The position numbers and the translations under genes are program-made. From a virus, in IMG/VR virus record IMGVR_UViG_3300037041_000747, positions 1 through 28,695 of that record: a DNA stretch of 28,695 nucleotides; one strand, given 5' to 3'. The notes beneath the pieces are model-generated. The model was not told the origin of the DNA, did not search any database, and saw only the letters and a list, made by a program, of their open reading frames with translations. Numbering within the stretch: position 1 is the first letter of the stretch; each line of letters opens with the position of its first letter. Below, in pieces: positions 1 to 28,695 of this stretch.

Positions 1-9
1 TATTTCTTG

Positions 10-285
10 TTAATTTTCTTTTAAGTAATCTTCCAGTGTCAAATCAGTTAAATAAAGATGGCGTTCAGGTCGTTTAAGTTCTAAATTATAAGTGCGAATT
101 CTTTTTACTAAACCAGAGTTTTCTAAGTTAGCAATATGAAATGACAGTGTTATCTTATTACTGATACTTAGTTTTTCTTGCATTGCTTCATTTGATAGTG
201 AACAGAATCCTTTTTCTTCGGCTTCTGACAAAATAAGAGAGAAGATTCTTTTGGTTGTTTGATTAAAATGTGGTTTCTTGTACAT
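10..285 (-). CDS. winged-helix DNA-binding regulator
   Basis: A 91-residue protein that looks like a single winged helix-turn-helix domain. Residues 8-27 form a first helix, about 30-60 contain the helix-turn-helix (LSNEAMQEKLSI, then FHIANLENSGLVKRI resembling a recognition helix), and 61-80 look like the wing strands before a short acidic tail. The pattern of an amphipathic helix followed by LENSGLVKR is common in MarR-like and replication-initiator-like winged helices. It probably acts as a small repressor or activator of phage genes. ATG at 283-285 follows an A-rich leader, and a TATATA-rich promoter candidate lies about 20-40 bases upstream. The gene sits outside the putative circular unit that starts at 452, so whether it belongs to the same molecule is unclear. 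The fold is fairly sure; the target is unknown. Confidence 0.6.
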   Translation of the reverse strand: MYKKPHFNQTTKRIFSLILSEAEEKGFCSLSNEAMQEKLSISNKITLSFHIANLENSGLVKRIRTYNLELKRPERHLYLTDLTLEDYLKEN

Positions 286-451
286 AGTTGTGTGTTGTTT
301 TTATTTGTTATATAGTATATATGGCGGCACATAGTTAAAATAGGCCCTTTTTGAGAATTATTTAGAAAAAATGTTATAAATCCTTTCAATAGTTCCATCC
401 CTAAGTATTGACGTACTCTATAGTATTCCGTAAAGCATTGGCTAGCTCACT
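286..451. other. intergenic region unique to the window's left end
   Basis: This holds the leader and candidate promoter of the leftward regulator and then about 125 bases with no convincing gene. The six-frame reading frame at 168-398 has no leader and overlaps the regulator in another frame. The sequence does not match the region preceding the second copy of the direct repeat (28053-28503), which matters for judging whether the window is circular. Confidence 0.5.
305..323 (-). promoter_or_regulatory. candidate promoter, TATATA-rich core
   Basis: Read leftward this gives a CATATATACTATATAAC core about 20-40 bases before the regulator start. Related cores (ATATATAGACTATAC or similar) occur at 554-574 and 28172-28190, and a looser one at 26189-26205. 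Sharing between otherwise unrelated upstream regions is the evidence; no start site is known. Confidence 0.35.
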
Positions 452-461
452 ACTAGAGACT

Positions 462-494
462 AAAAAACCGGAAGCGAATCAGACTTCCGGTTTA
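462..494 (-). terminator. intrinsic terminator
   Basis: Perfect 10-bp stem (465-474 with 484-493, AAACCGGAAG / CTTCCGGTTT) and a 9-base loop. Read leftward it is followed by a run of six T. It can end transcripts of the 577-1053 gene or of the candidate promoter at 554-574. Confidence 0.8.
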
Positions 495-553
495 ACCACA
501 ATAAAAATTCAAATGAAAAACATTTATAAACAAACTCATGAAAGCAACAATTG

Positions 554-574
554 TTTTGTATAGTCTATATATGG
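554..574 (-). promoter_or_regulatory. candidate promoter downstream of the 577-1053 gene
   Basis: Contains TGTATAGTCTATATAT, a string also present upstream of the primase-like gene at 28172-28189. Read leftward it is CATATATAGACTATACA. It lies just past the stop codon of the 577-1053 gene and only about 60 bases before the terminator at 462-494, so it could drive a very short transcript. Confidence 0.35.
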
Positions 575-576
575 AC

Positions 577-1053
577 TTAGCCAGCAATAATCTTTTCCCA
601 CTCCCTCCATTCCATTTCTACTAACATTTGGTGTCCACTTTTAAGTGTTACCCAGACACCACAACCATCTCCAATACATCTAGCCCAACTAGCTTGAATA
701 GAACTCAAGTCTAGCGACATTTGGTGACATGAATAGGTATTCATGTCGCTTGAAAAAAAGAGTACGCTAGTCTTGAGTTCTTTTGTACGACGAATTACGG
801 GCATTCCTATTGGTCTGCCCCGTTTACACCACTTTGTTTTCCATTCCTTTTCACTACCCCTAACTCGTATAGTATCTCCTTCAGCAAAAGTAATCTGGAC
901 AATTGGTTCGCCTTCATAAAGACCATTGTATTTAATATCTACTATTTTAGCAAGGTCTAACTGACACTCGAAGAATATTAGTCGGTCATTTGGGTAGTCA
1001 ACAACAAGTTTTTCACAATTTGTCGGATATTTGTAACCTAATAAATTTTCCAT
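577..1053 (-). CDS. unknown protein with internal duplication
   Basis: A 158-residue protein of unknown function. It seems to be built from two related halves. Residues about 24-73 (LIFFECQLDLAKI, then VQITFAEGDTIRVRG, then EKEW) parallel residues about 97-155 (VLFF, then HQMSLDLSSI, then VWVTLKSGHQMLVEME, then REWEKI). Each half looks like a small all-beta unit ending in a tryptophan-containing helix. There is no signal peptide or membrane segment. ATG at 1051-1053 follows a run of nine A. A terminator at 462-494 lies downstream. The C-terminal end is duplicated in the direct repeat at the right end of the window. It is a real gene by length, leader and neighbours, but no family was recognised. 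Confidence 0.6.
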   Translation of the reverse strand: MENLLGYKYPTNCEKLVVDYPNDRLIFFECQLDLAKIVDIKYNGLYEGEPIVQITFAEGDTIRVRGSEKEWKTKWCKRGRPIGMPVIRRTKELKTSVLFFSSDMNTYSCHQMSLDLSSIQASWARCIGDGCGVWVTLKSGHQMLVEMEWREWEKIIAG

Positions 1054-9266: not shown

Positions 9267-10541
9267 TTAAGCTATTCTAAACCATAAACCATTTAGAGCT
9301 GCTGTACCCGTACTTACTCCCCCAGCAGGGAACGTTGTTGGTAGTGTTGTTGAATATGTTGTCGCTACATCATATCCTCGTGGTACAAAAGAAGCTGATA
9401 CATCTGTTGTTCCAATAGCTGTATTAGCTATGACAAATCTTGTGAATCCAATCATACCTCCACTTGAACTATTCATATTAGCAGCTACAAAATATGTTCC
9501 AGCACTTAAACTCCAACTTACTGCTTGAGTTTGTGATGTACCTACAGCTAATGTAAATTCAGTAGAATTAAATAATTTAGTATCAGGGTAACCTGTTGAA
9601 TTTATACTATAAATACCATAAGTTATCCTTGCTCCAGCGTTTGTTGTACCTGCCCTTACATATAAAGTATCAATACTTATATTTTTTTCAATTGTTATAT
9701 AATACCCTACTAGTCTATTAATTTGCATTGTTCCAACAGTAGTTGAAAAATCATTACTTTGTAAAAGTGGTTGTATTGTTCCAACAGGATATTTGGCACT
9801 AGAACCACCTGTTGCCCCTGTAACACCTTGAATGCCGGTTGGTCCTGTTGCTCCATTATATGCTGATTGAATAACCGAAACAATAACAGAAGGTATTGTT
9901 GGATGAACTGCAGGTACTACACTAGCAGGTAAGGCATCTATATGAATATTAGCATTATTATTAGCCCAATATATTTCAAAGTAATCTCCTGCATTAGCTT
10001 GGATTAACCAATCCCAAGCAGGTACTACATATTTTGCAGAAGATGTAATAGTGACACTTGTAGCTGTGTTTGGAACATCTACACCATTTTTACGCAACCA
10101 AATATCAACTTCATCCCCAGAACCACCACCACCAGTATGATGAAATTGTGCTGAAAATTGAATATCATAAATCCCAGTTTGTGCAAATGTGATTTGTGTA
10201 TTACCAACTATACTTATTCCATTAGAAAAAGCATTGGTATTTAACTCCATTGCAGTTGGTGTGTTAATTACTGCAGTTTGGGTAGTAGTATCATAAGCAG
10301 AAAGATGGTAACCAGTAGCACCACCTGCTCCAGCAGCACCTGTAGGACCTTGTGGTCCTGTTGCACCATTAATACCTGTAACACCTTGTGGCCCAGTTGC
10401 TCCTGTTGCTCCGGTTGTCCCGGTTGGACCTGGAACAAAAGATTCAAGACCTATCCAGGCATTTCCATTCCATTCCCAAACATCACCATTCGGACTTGTG
10501 TATAATTCACCTATAAAACTAGGTATCGGCCAATTTATCAT
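9267..10541 (-). CDS. collagen-like tail fibre with C1q-like domain
   Basis: A 424-residue fibre subunit. Residues 1-35 (SPNGDVWEWNGNAWIGL) form a short N-terminal attachment-type motif. Residues 38-77 are Gly-X-Y collagen repeats. Residues about 78-226 look like a compact beta jelly-roll of the C1q/TNF or BclA type (GIYDIQFSAQFHH, DVDIWLRKNG-like strands, DYFEIYWANN). Residues 230-246 are a second short collagen segment, and 250-424 are a beta domain homologous to the C-terminus of the 10999-12654 protein. Collagen segments imply a homotrimer. It probably binds the host surface. It lies between neck genes and the fusion protein. Confidence 0.75.
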   Translation of the reverse strand: MINWPIPSFIGELYTSPNGDVWEWNGNAWIGLESFVPGPTGTTGATGATGPQGVTGINGATGPQGPTGAAGAGGATGYHLSAYDTTTQTAVINTPTAMELNTNAFSNGISIVGNTQITFAQTGIYDIQFSAQFHHTGGGGSGDEVDIWLRKNGVDVPNTATSVTITSSAKYVVPAWDWLIQANAGDYFEIYWANNNANIHIDALPASVVPAVHPTIPSVIVSVIQSAYNGATGPTGIQGVTGATGGSSAKYPVGTIQPLLQSNDFSTTVGTMQINRLVGYYITIEKNISIDTLYVRAGTTNAGARITYGIYSINSTGYPDTKLFNSTEFTLAVGTSQTQAVSWSLSAGTYFVAANMNSSSGGMIGFTRFVIANTAIGTTDVSASFVPRGYDVATTYSTTLPTTFPAGGVSTGTAALNGLWFRIA

Positions 10542-10998: not shown

Positions 10999-12654
10999 TT
11001 ATACTATTCTAAAAACAATATGAGGTATGCTAAATCCAGTACCAGCACCAGTTACCGTTACTGGATATGTATCCCAATTTGATGGTAGACTACCTGAATA
11101 AGTAAGACTTTTGAACAAAGCGCTTCCATTAGCTGTATTGGCATTACCTTGTGCGAATACCGCCACAGGTGCCCCAAAACTGATTGACCTAAAAGTTGCA
11201 GCAGAACTACTATTCCAAGCTACATAATAAACTCCAGCTTGTAGTGAAATCGGTGAAGGTAAAGTCCAAGTTTGTACAGAAATAATACCATTGTTGAAAG
11301 GACTTGCTGTATTAGCGAATAAAAGATTATTCGGAACTCCATTTATGTTATCATATAAACCAAAAACACTATTACCAGCTAATGGACCGCCTATGAATAC
11401 ACCAATTTGGTCAATAGTTACACTCTTTCTGATATAAATTGGACTGATACCAAGTTGGTTTGTGAGTATCGCTGTATTTATTAGTCCAACATTTGTGACA
11501 TGGAATGAATGATATGAACCTAGTGCTGGTGAAGTATAATAATTGAAGTTCATATCACCTGCAGGACCAGTAGCACCGGCTGCGCCTGTTGGACCAACCA
11601 TATTCAACGGTGTAACCCATTGCGTTGTAGTTCCATCGTCTATATAAACATATAGATTTCCTAAATCGCTATCAAACCAAAAACTACCAGGTGTTATTGT
11701 CCCAGTTGGTAATGTATCTTGAAAGAAAAATGGATAAGGTCCTGTCGGTCCTGTAACACCTTGAGGTCCAGTATCTCCAGTTGCACCAGTTTGTCCAGTA
11801 TCGCCTTGAATACCCTGTGGCCCTGTTACACCTTGAGGGCCTTGTGGACCTGTATCTCCAGTTAATCCAGTTGCACCAGTAACACCATCAATACCTGTAA
11901 CACCTTGAGGACCCGTTGGACCTTGTGGCCCGATTATACCTTGAGGTCCTGTAACACCTTGAGGTCCTGTAAGACCATCAATACCTGTAACACCTTGAGG
12001 ACCTTGCGGTCCGGTTGGCCCGATTATACCTTGAGGTCCTGTAACACCTTGAGGTCCTGTAACACCTTGAATGCCTTGTGGTCCTGTAACACCATCAATA
12101 CCTGTAACACCTTGAGGACCCGTTGGACCTTGTGGTCCAGTAGGACCCATCCAAGGAGAATAAGTAATATCACAAACTGGTGTTAGAACTGTTGGCTGGT
12201 CACCAAAAGGAATATCACAAACTGTAGTGGTTTCAATCTCAACTACAAAGTTCATTTGCCATCCAGCCCATCTATCATTTCCACCATTGTTTAGTGGCAC
12301 CAATTGAGAAGTAGAAATAACTTCAATACCAGGAAGATTGCCTTCTTTTAGCCACTTATGCAAGTCACCAAGGATTTCACTAGTTGTAGTTAAAACTTCA
12401 TTGATATCTGAACGGTCTTCTCTAAATAACTCAACTGCATAAGCAGTAAACTGATATTGGTTTAAATAAGTCTGGTAAATACCACCGTTTAGTGTACTAT
12501 TGACTGGAGTTATATAAAGCACTGGATAATCCGCACCAGTAGAGGCCCAAGTAGACATCTGCTCGAAGAAATCAGATTTAAATCTTCTTACTTGTAAGTG
12601 ACTAGAAGCAAATGCTTCCAAGACATTAAGTAATGTGATATAATTGTGAGTCAT
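10999..12654 (-). CDS. tail-completion domain fused to collagen-like fibre
   Basis: A 551-residue multidomain protein. Residues 1-168 resemble tail terminator/completion proteins: [55 protein letters not shown], and [19 protein letters not shown]. Residues about 170-308 are nearly uninterrupted Gly-X-Y repeats (GPQGVTG type). About 309-352 ([19 protein letters not shown]) is a small beta motif seen in phage fibres. About 353-368 is a second collagen segment, and 369-551 is a beta domain homologous to the end of the neighbouring 9267-10541 fibre. The product would put a trimeric fibre on the neck or tail end. It starts just after the tape-measure gene. The fusion within one frame looks genuine. 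Confidence 0.75.
11720..12150 (-). repeat. collagen-coding DNA repeat tract
   Basis: This stretch encodes the Gly-X-Y repeats and is made of near-identical units such as GGTCCTGTAACACCTTGA. A longer block beginning CCGATTATACCTTGAGG occurs twice about 91 bases apart (about 11935 and 12026), and CCATCAATACCTGTAACACC occurs three times (about 11885, 11975, 12092). It is prone to slippage or recombination that would change fibre length in steps. Confidence 0.8.
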
Positions 12655-25682: not shown

Positions 25683-26141
25683 TTATTTTTTGTCATTTAA
25701 GAAGTAAAATTGGATTTTACATTGACCCCAATGAGTAACGATAACATCCATAAATTCTTCGCATTCGTGTTGGAGTATAATAGTATCTGTGTCACCTCCA
25801 GGAGTTATTGTAACCATTGTTTCGTCTATCCAGAGTGGCATTTCACCTTCTAGTATTGATTCGTCTACAGCATCATGCCAGTAATCAATAAATTCCATAG
25901 AGGAATCCGAAGGCAAGCGGTCAACAAAAGTAAATGTTTCTTCTGGCGTAGTAAGGTGGTTATAGTCTTCTGGATTAACACCGGATAAAATTTGCAGTGT
26001 GTTCTCCCATTCTTCAGCAGAGACATTATCAGGACCCCATCCATGGTCTTTATAGATTTGGATAAGAGTTTCAAGACATTCAGCATACTGACGTTTAGTT
26101 TGATTTGCTGGAATTTCGTGGTTTGGTTTAATTGAGTTCAT
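25683..26141 (-). CDS. unknown acidic 152-residue protein
   Basis: An acidic protein, helical in the first third (KRQYAECLETLIQIYKDHGWG) and strand-rich at the end (MPLWIDETMVTITPGGDTDTIILQ, then GQCKIQFYFLNDKK). No family was recognised. Its upstream region shares a TATATA core and the CCCCTTTT/AAAAATAA strings with the region before the primase-like gene, so both may be early genes. Small, acidic early phage proteins often target host factors, but nothing in the sequence shows which. Confidence 0.55.
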   Translation of the reverse strand: MNSIKPNHEIPANQTKRQYAECLETLIQIYKDHGWGPDNVSAEEWENTLQILSGVNPEDYNHLTTPEETFTFVDRLPSDSSMEFIDYWHDAVDESILEGEMPLWIDETMVTITPGGDTDTIILQHECEEFMDVIVTHWGQCKIQFYFLNDKK

Positions 26142-26184
26142 GATTCATTGTGGTTTTTTTGTGTGATGCATTGCAGCATTGGTT

Positions 26185-26232
26185 ATTGTAAGATATATAT
26201 AGTTATTTTTAGGGGAAAAAACTACAAAAGGG
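26185..26232 (-). promoter_or_regulatory. candidate early promoter region
   Basis: Read leftward: AGCCCCTTTT, then TTCCCCTAAAAATAACT, then ATATATATCTTACAATAA. Close relatives of these strings occur in the same order at 28172-28220 upstream of the primase-like gene. It starts about 45 bases upstream of the 25683-26141 ATG. Confidence 0.4.
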
Positions 26233-26332
26233 GCTAAAATGTGTGTTTTTGCTAAATAGTTTTGTTAATGTTTTGTTAAGGTTAGTATATGAGTAAAGCT
26301 TCATACGGGAGAGAGAAGTATAATCAAATTAG

Positions 26333-26653
26333 TTACAATGTAATCAAATCAGTGACATTAGCACTAAAAGTTAAATCAATAGCACTTAGTTCATAAGTAA
26401 TTAGCTCATAACCATCTATATAAATTTCAGTGCCAAAGATTCTATGTTCTTCATTAAGCTTAAACTTGTTTTCTTTAGTAAATTCCAACCATTGAGTCAT
26501 TGTATCTTTGAGTAAAGTATTGGACCAAAGCAATAAACAATTAGTGTCACCGATTTGAGTAGATATTTGGGCTCTAGTTAAAATATTAAAGGGCGGAAGA
26601 ATAGCTACAATTTGTAGTTGTTCAAATGTTATGTAAACTGGTAATTTAGTCAT
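26333..26653 (-). CDS. unknown 106-residue protein
   Basis: A small protein with mixed strands and helices: VYITFEQLQIVAILPPFNIL at the N-terminus, a central tryptophan helix (TMTQWLEFTKENKFKL) and a strand-rich end (EIYIDGYELITYELSAIDLT). No family was recognised. It starts 20 bases downstream of the nested palindrome that ends the primase-like gene, so it needs its own promoter or readthrough. ATG at 26651-26653. Confidence 0.5.
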   Translation of the reverse strand: MTKLPVYITFEQLQIVAILPPFNILTRAQISTQIGDTNCLLLWSNTLLKDTMTQWLEFTKENKFKLNEEHRIFGTEIYIDGYELITYELSAIDLTFSANVTDLITL

Positions 26654-26672
26654 AGTAGGTTTAGTTTATGTG

Positions 26673-26765
26673 TTAAGAAAAGGGGTTAAGCAGTGTTAAT
26701 ACCTCTATAATATAGCTTTGGTTTTAATTATAGAGGGTTCCTTAAGATTTAACCCCTTTTCTTAA
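26673..26765 (-). terminator. nested palindrome / terminator at the end of the primase-like gene
   Basis: Outer 17-bp perfect arms TTAAGAAAAGGGGTTAA (26673-26689) and its complement (26749-26765) enclose inner 10-bp arms CCTCTATAAT and ATTATAGAGG. The last five codons of the primase-like gene lie in the right arm. Read leftward the last arm ends in CCCCTTTTCTT. It can work as a terminator and can form a cruciform. Confidence 0.7.
26678..26763. repeat. 86-bp perfect inverted repeat, left copy
   Basis: The reverse complement of 26678-26763 is identical to 28410-28495 over all 86 bases. Each copy is a nested palindrome, but the copies are not simply self-complementary: the spacer sequences set an orientation, and the two copies are inverted relative to each other around the primase-like gene. 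Confidence 0.95.
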
Positions 26766-28119
26766 GTGTTTGGTTAAAGTCTTTAATTTTAGCAATTTGC
26801 TCTTTAGTTATATTTACTTTAATAGTAGATAAAGATATGCCTAAATCAGTAGCAATAGTTTCTCTAGTCACTTTGCTGGTTTTACCAGCCATAACATTGG
26901 TTATCCAATGGTCAATATTGTTTTCTTGCTTTGGTTTAGCACTAGAGTTTAAATTATCTAACATTGCTTGGTGTTCTGTCTGCCAGTATTTTCTCAAAGT
27001 AGTTAGAGACATACCAATACCACTTGCAATAACATCCATAGTTATCTTAGTAGAATATCCAGTTAAATTCTCACTTAACCAATCACTAATTAAACCAGTA
27101 TTTATCTCATGCTTAACTGATTTAACTTTTTGGTGGAAAGCAGCTACTTTATTTGTAACTGTTGGGTCAATCCAGTAGTATTTCATTTTAGTTCCCATTG
27201 GTGTTAATGTGTTTCTATTTTTAATTTTATAATCTAACAAACTTCTTAGTTCTTGCTTTTTCATTGGAGTTCTACACCATTTTCTATTAATTGTATCAAG
27301 TAAAGTTAACATTCTTTCAGTTGGAACATTTGGATTAAGAATAACCATATTGTTAGTGAAAGTAGATAAGATTTTGTTTCGTTCTCCATCGTTTATTAAT
27401 GCAACTATTCCTCTTCCTCTAAATTTTAAATGACAACCAAACCATGTTTTTCCTTCCGGGATATAGTGACATTCTTCAGTATAGCTACTTAAGGTCTGAT
27501 TCAGTCTAATTACACCAGTAAGGTTTTGTATTAAACCAATTGAACTAATCACTAGATCTTCGTCTGGTATATCTAAGCAGTCAATCTCATCACTGTTTGG
27601 ATTAAAATAAACTTCTGGGTCATACGCAAGCACTAGTGTTCTGTTAATTGTTTTAGCATTAGTGTCTATTCCAGTAAATCCTGCAAGTCCAATAACATTT
27701 TCAATTGAATTTTTGAAATTTTCCTTAGTTACTCCCAATGTTTTAACTAAAACAGAAACACCAGTACCACTAAGTGAAAACCAACAAGCATAAACAGAAT
27801 CATTATTACTTAATTCTTCTTTCTTAGCTTGAGCTTCTTCATGTGTTGTAAGGTCCCAATCAAAGTAAAGAAATCCAGTGGATTCAATTACATTTATATC
27901 TCTTCTAACTTTGTCGAAAAGAAAATTAGTTGTAATACATGGTAATTTTTTTGTTTTAACTGCTCTATATTCTTCTTTTGATTGACTTGTTTTAAGTAAT
28001 TTAGCTTCAAGAATGGTTTCTAAATTTTCACCACCAGTTCTTACCATTTCTATTACTTCTTCAGGAGTCACTATTTTTATTTGTACTGGCTCGGAGACAG
28101 CTTTCCATAAATTAAACAT
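26749..28119 (-). CDS. VirE_N/BT4734-like primase-like protein with two HTH repeats
   Basis: A 456-residue protein. Residues about 60-180 carry the signatures of the BT4734/VirE_N family: FLYFDWDL (Asp87, Asp89), SLSGTGVSVLVK (115-126) and NRTLVLAYDPEVYFNP (159-174). The hDhD-type motif and SGxG suggest a fold related to archaeo-eukaryotic primases. Residues about 230-315 are helical with a conserved-looking MKKQELRSLLDYK. Residues 341-380 and 402-437 are two similar helix-turn-helix units (DWLSE..TGYSTKIT.DVIA..IGMSLTTL; HWITN..AGKTSKVT.ETIA.DLGISLSTI). There is no helicase domain. It is probably the replication initiator/primase. It is flanked by perfect inverted repeats and has a TATATA promoter candidate 53 bases upstream. 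Confidence 0.7.
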   Translation of the reverse strand: MFNLWKAVSEPVQIKIVTPEEVIEMVRTGGENLETILEAKLLKTSQSKEEYRAVKTKKLPCITTNFLFDKVRRDINVIESTGFLYFDWDLTTHEEAQAKKEELSNNDSVYACWFSLSGTGVSVLVKTLGVTKENFKNSIENVIGLAGFTGIDTNAKTINRTLVLAYDPEVYFNPNSDEIDCLDIPDEDLVISSIGLIQNLTGVIRLNQTLSSYTEECHYIPEGKTWFGCHLKFRGRGIVALINDGERNKILSTFTNNMVILNPNVPTERMLTLLDTINRKWCRTPMKKQELRSLLDYKIKNRNTLTPMGTKMKYYWIDPTVTNKVAAFHQKVKSVKHEINTGLISDWLSENLTGYSTKITMDVIASGIGMSLTTLRKYWQTEHQAMLDNLNSSAKPKQENNIDHWITNVMAGKTSKVTRETIATDLGISLSTIKVNITKEQIAKIKDFNQTLKKRG

Positions 28120-28171
28120 AAATTTTAGATTTTTTTATTACACTTGAACGGCGCCAACCGTTTTGAATATT

Positions 28172-28190
28172 GTTGTATAGTCTATATATC
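28172..28190 (-). promoter_or_regulatory. candidate promoter of the primase-like gene
   Basis: Contains TGTATAGTCTATATAT, shared with 554-574. Read leftward the wider region (28172-28220) shares TAACCCCTTTT, AAAAATAA and an ATATATA core with 26185-26232, in the same order. It begins 53 bases upstream of the ATG. Confidence 0.45.
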
Positions 28191-28260
28191 AGTTTATTTT
28201 TGGAAAAGGGGTTATTTTAAGACTTATTTAGTAAATAAATGAAAATATTTAGTTAACCGT

Positions 28261-28276
28261 GTTCAACTTAGTTGAC
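28261..28276. promoter_or_regulatory. GTTnAAC-type dyad
   Basis: GTTCAACTTAGTTGAC. Centre TTA flanked by CAAC and GTTG. It is a variant of the leader motif family, here 141 bases upstream of the primase-like ATG, too far to be a translation-leader hairpin. Confidence 0.35.
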
Positions 28277-28354
28277 AACTTGATTTTAAAGCTAAGAAAG
28301 CTGGTCTCAGTTACGAAACCAGCAGTGGCGTTTCTCAAGAATAATAAAAACAAT

Positions 28355-28468
28355 ATGTTTAAAGGTTTTTACATTCTATATATCAAAGCTATTATAGAAA
28401 ATTTAAAAGAAGAAAAGGGGTTAAATCTTAAGGAACCCTCTATAATTAAAACCAAAGCTATATTATAG
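28355..28468 (+). CDS. possible 37-residue plus-strand peptide
   Basis: An ATG preceded by ATAATAAAAACAAT, a leader much like those of the phage's real genes, opens a 37-residue frame (MFKGFYILYIKAIIENLKEE and a basic remainder). Its last 19 codons or so lie in the right inverted repeat, where the left copy ends the primase-like gene in a different frame. A longer frame from a GTG at 28259 is less likely. It could be a real small peptide, the remnant of a gene, or chance. Confidence 0.25.
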   Translation: MFKGFYILYIKAIIENLKEEKGLNLKEPSIIKTKAIL

Positions 28469-28495
28469 AGGTATTAACACTGCTTAACCCCTTTT
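28410..28495. repeat. 86-bp perfect inverted repeat, right copy
   Basis: Identical to the reverse complement of 26678-26763. Just after the match this copy has TTCTT where the left copy (read in the same sense) has CTTAA, extending the T run to six and making it a stronger terminator in the plus direction. It ends 8 bases before the right copy of the direct repeat. Confidence 0.95.
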
Positions 28496-28497
28496 TT
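28410..28497 (+). terminator. nested-hairpin terminator, plus orientation
   Basis: Arms AAGAAAAGGGGTTAA and TTAACCCCTTTT with inner arms CCTCTATAAT and ATTATAGAGG. The plus strand ends in TTTTTT (28492-28497). It would stop rightward transcription from the 28355 region before the direct repeat. Confidence 0.5.
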
Positions 28498-28503
28498 CTT
28501 CTG

Positions 28504-28695
28504 ACTAGAGACTAAAAAAACCGGAAGCGAATCAGACTCCCGGTTAAACCACAATAAAAATTCAAATGAAAACATTTATAAACAAACTCATGAAAGCAAC
28601 AATTGTTTTGTATAGTCTATATATGGACTTAGCCAGCAATAATCTTTTCCCACTCCCTCCATTCCATTTCTACTAACATTTGGTGTCCACTTTTA
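28504..28695. repeat. 192-bp direct repeat, right copy
   Basis: Matches 452-643 with four small differences. The substitutions at 28539 and 28546 weaken the terminator stem that is perfect in the left copy. The match runs to the last base of the window, so the true extent of the repeat may be longer. Confidence 0.9.
28629..28695 (-). CDS. 3' fragment of the 577-1053 gene, second copy
   Basis: The stop codon (28629-28631) and the last 21 or so residues (ending EWREWEKIIAG) of the duplicated 158-residue protein, cut by the window edge. The bases are identical to those at 577-643. If the molecule is circular this is the same gene seen twice. Confidence 0.75.
   Translation of the reverse strand, partial: KSGHQMLVEMEWREWEKIIAG

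Follow-up and report, generated by a model that had tools for sequence, protein, structure and literature searches.

Inverted two-tier hairpins around a helicase-less BT4734-like primase gene as candidate replication-origin sites of a phage

The gene for a BT4734-like primase in this phage genome is bracketed by two identical, inverted 86-nt repeats, each of which can fold into a two-tier hairpin (Table 1). The hairpins could well be sites of the initiator/primase that together form the replication origin of the phage. This interpretation is held tentatively, and is favored because the window (the whole stretch of DNA analyzed here, 28,695 nt, which is the complete IMG/VR record IMGVR_UViG_3300037041_000747) unites features of the pRN1 type, of the RSF1010 type and of the helicase-less AEP-HTH type (see below). 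We know of no account of how helicase-less BT4734-like AEP primases start replication, and the locus, which pairs a single defined protein with two candidate sites of identical sequence, is a small, tractable system. A bolder proposal, which we consider quite doubtful, is that identical inverted hairpins, one per strand, around a helicase-less AEP initiator are paired priming sites for strand-displacement replication in a dsDNA phage, with the same slot holding different replication genes and lineage-specific hairpins or motif clusters in the relatives.

Table 1. Positions of the features discussed in the text (window coordinates).
Feature	Position	Strand	Remarks
Alternative strain branch	1..516	.	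Joins the same late-operon end
Overlap closing the circular map	517..643	.	127 nt, exact repeat of 28569-28695
Solo stem motif AAAAGGGGCTAA	26226..26237	+	Upstream of ORF 25683-26141
Left two-tier hairpin	26673..26765	.	93 nt; holds the left 86-nt arm, 26678-26763
BT4734-like AEP primase gene	26749..28119	-	456 aa; PF08800 match; two C-terminal HTH repeats
Promoter-like element GATATATAGACTATACAA	28173..28190	-	Upstream of the primase
Solo stem motif AAAAGGGGTTAT	28204..28215	+	Adjoins the primase promoter-like element on its upstream side
Right two-tier hairpin, inverted copy	28408..28502	.	Holds the right 86-nt arm, 28410-28495
Intrinsic-terminator-like hairpin with T-tract	28519..28545	-	Marks the end of the late operon, 16 nt beyond the right hairpin

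The two arms are exact reverse complements of each other over all 86 nt and are separated by a spacer of 1646 nt. When a 28.7-kb sequence is simulated 60 times with a first-order Markov model, the longest exact inverted repeat that arises by chance is 26 nt, and the arms are therefore far beyond chance. The unit common to both copies runs from AAG to CTT if a difference between 4 and 6 A residues is tolerated; in the right hairpin, one tract has 6 T where the left has 4. The two adjoining base pairs on the outside are not the same in the two copies (TTAAG/CTTAA in the left copy, AGAAG/CTTCT in the right copy), yet they pair within each copy. This pairing is at most suggestive, since its probability by chance is about 1 in 256.

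In each arm, the 12-bp outer stem is formed by AAAAGGGGTTAA and TTAACCCCTTTT, and the 10-bp inner stem by CCTCTATAAT and ATTATAGAGG. Flanking bases lengthen the outer stem of the left hairpin to 17 bp, all of them perfectly paired, with 59 nt enclosed. Both hairpins fold strongly, with z scores from -4.6 to -6.4 as DNA and from -4.6 to -8.2 as RNA. The hairpin (93-95 nt) is present in two inverted copies and in no others within the window, and it is absent from IMG/VR and from a genome collection of 84,980 species in both exact and relaxed searches. No Rfam family and no tRNA is found in the window.

The N-terminal domain of the primase matches PF08800 (BT4734-like AEP) with a score of 44.9 bits, compared to a cut-off of 22.4, and an E value of 1.6e-11. 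AEP motif I (hhhDhD) is present, with the DxD at residues 87/89, and the motif II histidine (sxH) is not seen in its usual form. Residues D87, D89, S115, G120, D152 and R160, which cover motif I and the conserved positions of motifs II/III, are invariant among six AEPs. The two HTH repeats are arranged in tandem in the C-terminal region and share 29% identity over 48 aa. There is also a sub-threshold NCBIfam match to CRISPR-associated primase-polymerase type B. In the viral collection, the full-length proteins most closely related to it have 402 and 424 aa, share 23-25% identity with it and are likewise helicase-less; with the primase as the query, no close relative is found in phages, viral contigs or genomes, and the match among plasmids is one distant plasmid protein. 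The AlphaFold2 model of the primase, with a mean pLDDT of 35, is too poor for use.

These results bear out what the preliminary description had noticed about the locus, namely the perfect 86-base inverted repeats, the two-tier hairpin in each copy, and a BT4734-like protein with two HTH repeats. It had also stated that the repeats enclose about 1.65 kb with one large gene. The spacing is correct, but the primase gene is not wholly located between the arms, as its stop codon and last codons (26749-26765) are inside the left hairpin.

The motif of the outer stem is confined to this locus. With up to one mismatch, AAAAGGGGTTAA has six copies in the window compared to 0.33 expected window-wide, and all six are found in 26226-28495, a cluster spanning 2.3 kb around the primase. 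Four of the copies are the hairpin stems themselves, while the remaining two are solo motifs, each with a promoter-like element downstream of it. Copies related to the promoter-like element GATATATAGACTATACAA are located at 28608-28625 and 556-573, with a weaker one at 28367-28384. The right hairpin and the start codon of the primase are separated by an interval that holds promoter-like elements and, in the presumed leader, a further hairpin (GCTGGTTTCGTAACTGAGACCAGC, 28300-28323). The location of the stem motif near promoter-like elements fits regulation, and counts against the origin reading. GC skew gives no clear origin signal.

The segment may be a replication module in which the cis-acting site of a helicase-less AEP initiator is present on either side of the gene, in two inverted copies that are each a two-tier hairpin made of AAAAGGGGTTAA and its complement. 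The HTH repeats would bind the motif, and possibly also regulate the nearby promoters. The DNA would then open or be extruded, and the AEP domain would prime on the exposed strand of the hairpin. As the copies are inverted, each strand has the site once and in the same orientation, and the duplication could thereby make both strands primable.

A detailed comparison can be made with three known types of replicon. The plasmid pRN1 requires a stem-loop of about 100 nt adjoining its AEP gene (orf904), and similar stem-loops have been proposed for AEP phages, including BIP-1 (PMC4234260). The pRN1 stem-loop is near the 3' end of the AEP gene, as is the 93-nt left hairpin, located at the stop codon. 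The stem has 17 bp with 59 nt enclosed here, and 21 nt with a 58-nt loop in pRN1. There are clear differences, however. Two copies are present rather than one, the left copy overlaps the stop codon, and there is a second, inner stem. Moreover, the pRN1 protein combines the AEP with an SF3 helicase and a winged helix, whereas the primase here is BT4734-like, has HTH repeats and is without a helicase.

In the oriV of RSF1010, the ssiA and ssiB hairpins, one per strand, are recognized by the AEP primase RepB' (PMC4434180, PMC4234260). An AEP-type primase and a hairpin site that occurs once per strand in a given orientation are common to both systems. On the other hand, the candidate sites in the phage are about 93 nt in length (93-95 nt), as compared to the 40-nt ssi with its short hairpin, and they are 1.65 kb apart with a gene in between. 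In addition, no RepA helicase, RepC or Rep family is found among the ORFs scanned.

Initiators with an AEP and an HTH but no helicase are exemplified by RepE/RepS, PrimHYQ and ColE2 Rep (PMC5862659). The phage protein likewise has an AEP domain followed by a C-terminal HTH; a profile scan finds no helicase domain in it, and no helicase family is found among the genome ORFs scanned. In comparison with these initiators, it belongs to the BT4734-like family, it gives no PriCT-1 match, and it has two HTH repeats. Literature searches gave no equivalent bracketed phage primase.

The relatives of the phage come from 80 viral loci gathered by alignment of tail proteins. A BT4734-like AEP is present in 7 of the 50 related records searched. 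Among the 21 relatives that were compared fully or over a large part of their sequence, the 86-nt repeat is absent, and no primase gene has a repeat of this kind at its sides; related architectures are observed in some relatives. In G003, the same gene slot is occupied by a different presumed replication gene (assigned by position, with no family match). Upstream of this gene, a terminator-like hairpin is closely followed by a pair of 36-nt hairpins in inverted orientation. The presumed replication gene of G042 (also assigned by position, with no family match) is preceded, at a distance of 3 nt, by a two-tier hairpin, which is the only perfect stem in that contig with at least 12 bp and at least three G-C pairs. 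Recurring hairpins beside differing replication genes would suggest that origins are exchanged along with initiators.

Inverted GCGTGACAACT motifs are located upstream of the AEP gene in several other relatives, where they form a two-tier fold in G019 and G024, and one with weaker stems in G034, G009 and G011. Like the present locus, these AEP loci have inverted motifs clustered near the gene, and a two-tier fold. They differ from it in that there is a single compact cluster upstream, with GCGTGACAACT as the motif, and in that the AEP protein is extended by PriCT and helicase-like regions. In other relatives, the replication gene is preceded by iteron-like clusters. The hairpins of the relatives vary in sequence and position, and none of them flanks the gene on both sides. 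For the G019-G011 set, pair counting finds a single compensated pair and 95% of cells paired, and a score as high is reached by 44 of 500 shuffles; by this measure, a conserved fold among the related hairpins appears to have little support. The preliminary description had regarded related genomes that have the gene and no flanking inverted repeat as refuting it. Relatives with an AEP gene and without this flanking pair do exist, which goes part of the way towards such a refutation; bracketing is thus no general feature, although several of them have other inverted motif clusters. Strong hairpins are also rare near the BT4734-like AEP genes of 53 other, more distant viral loci. The hairpin is therefore not a general requirement of the family, but a feature of some lineages.

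Several candidate parallels were discarded. In L133, a phage with a helicase-less AEP, AATTGTGTA repeats surround the AEP gene but also occur upstream of many other L133 genes, and they are probably promoter-associated. G049 was dropped as a parallel because its inverted repeats form weak hairpins. Those of G043 form no strong hairpins and flank a DNA methylase gene (26134-26896, L101:9134-9896); they are imperfect, with a length of about 70 bp, and the arrangement is cassette-like.

An internal segment is repeated exactly at the right end of the window. The map is therefore circular, and the nucleotides before that segment are an alternative branch, from another strain. Terminal repeats of 127 bp are also found at the ends of seven relatives (G003, G009, G018, G023, G025, G034 and G043), which would fit assembly with k = 127. 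Judged from these overlaps, the genome is a 28,052-bp circle; the record itself is classed as linear. The closed sizes of the relatives are 28.4-30.3 kb in six of the seven, and 35.6 kb in G043. The implied k-mer exceeds the 86-nt repeat in length, so that spanning 127-mers support the presence of each copy as well as the way the segment is oriented. Minor inverted forms of the segment may exist. Position 452 of the branch (equivalent to 28504) is where its homology with the main path sets in, 2 nt beyond the right hairpin, and the early region thus differs between strains from there on. Two early regions (window 1-516 and 28504-28695) join one late-operon end. ORF 10-285 of the strain branch (minus strand) is short and of the winged-helix type, and it weakly matches families of phage replication initiation; a search for relatives of this ORF found none.

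The main rival to the origin reading, which we regard as somewhat unlikely, is that the hairpins are bidirectional terminators/operators, insulating the primase transcript and controlling it, like those of a moron-like early gene that has a promoter and terminators of its own. The stems are of the A-tract/GGGG...CCCC/T-tract type and the hairpins fold strongly as RNA, the left one at the primase stop codon, while motif copies are found upstream of gene starts or promoter-like elements. However, the right copy directly follows a good terminator, which would make a second one redundant on that strand. The 59 enclosed nucleotides are unusual for intrinsic terminators, neither copy is listed by the terminator scan (which considers loops of 3-8 only), and 86 identical bases, including the unpaired parts, exceed the needs of a terminator. 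Plasmid-type initiators often regulate their own promoters, and control of transcription is therefore compatible with an origin at the same sites.

The preliminary description had suggested an invertible or mobile cassette, paired origin/termination sites, or a fold-back artefact. Among these three options, paired sites of the origin type, recognized by the HTH protein, fit best, given the local motif, the hairpins or inverted motifs of some relatives and the likeness to pRN1. For a cassette, the arms would be terminal inverted repeats for a recombinase or transposase that moves or flips the primase gene. Perfect 86-nt inverted repeats around a single gene, a low GC content (31%, compared to 37% for the window) and the end of the strain-branch homology 2 nt outside the right hairpin are consistent with this. 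But no recombinase or transposase family is matched among the ORFs scanned, no second location is found in the collections scanned, and there is neither a target-site duplication nor any direct repeat common to both outer ends. In addition, 127-mers span each repeat, and the contig is unbroken there and has the segment in one orientation, with which the pairing of the flanks agrees. The strain branch is also no simple empty site, and a cassette is improbable overall. There is little likelihood, too, that one regulatory or origin hairpin recently gave rise to a neutral inverted duplicate (template switching being one possible route), with the second copy not yet functional. A recent copy would account equally well for the perfect identity of the arms, as it would be expected to match in paired and unpaired parts alike, and two long copies are found in no relative compared. 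Arguing against it are the inverted hairpin pair of G003 and, weakly, the outermost pairs that differ between the copies but pair within each. A fold-back chimera of assembly or amplification is very improbable. Although the sequence is a metagenome contig and chimera formation can generate exact inverted repeats, both copies have unique sequence on either side and an intact gene between them. Moreover, the exact 127-bp overlap closes the contig, and each copy is shorter than the implied k-mer.

The strongest RNA-folding hairpin of the window is located elsewhere, at 700-781, and is also two-tiered. It lies inside ORF 577-1053, the protein of which belongs to no known family. The tail region encodes two proteins with collagen-like repeats (9267-10541 and 10999-12654).
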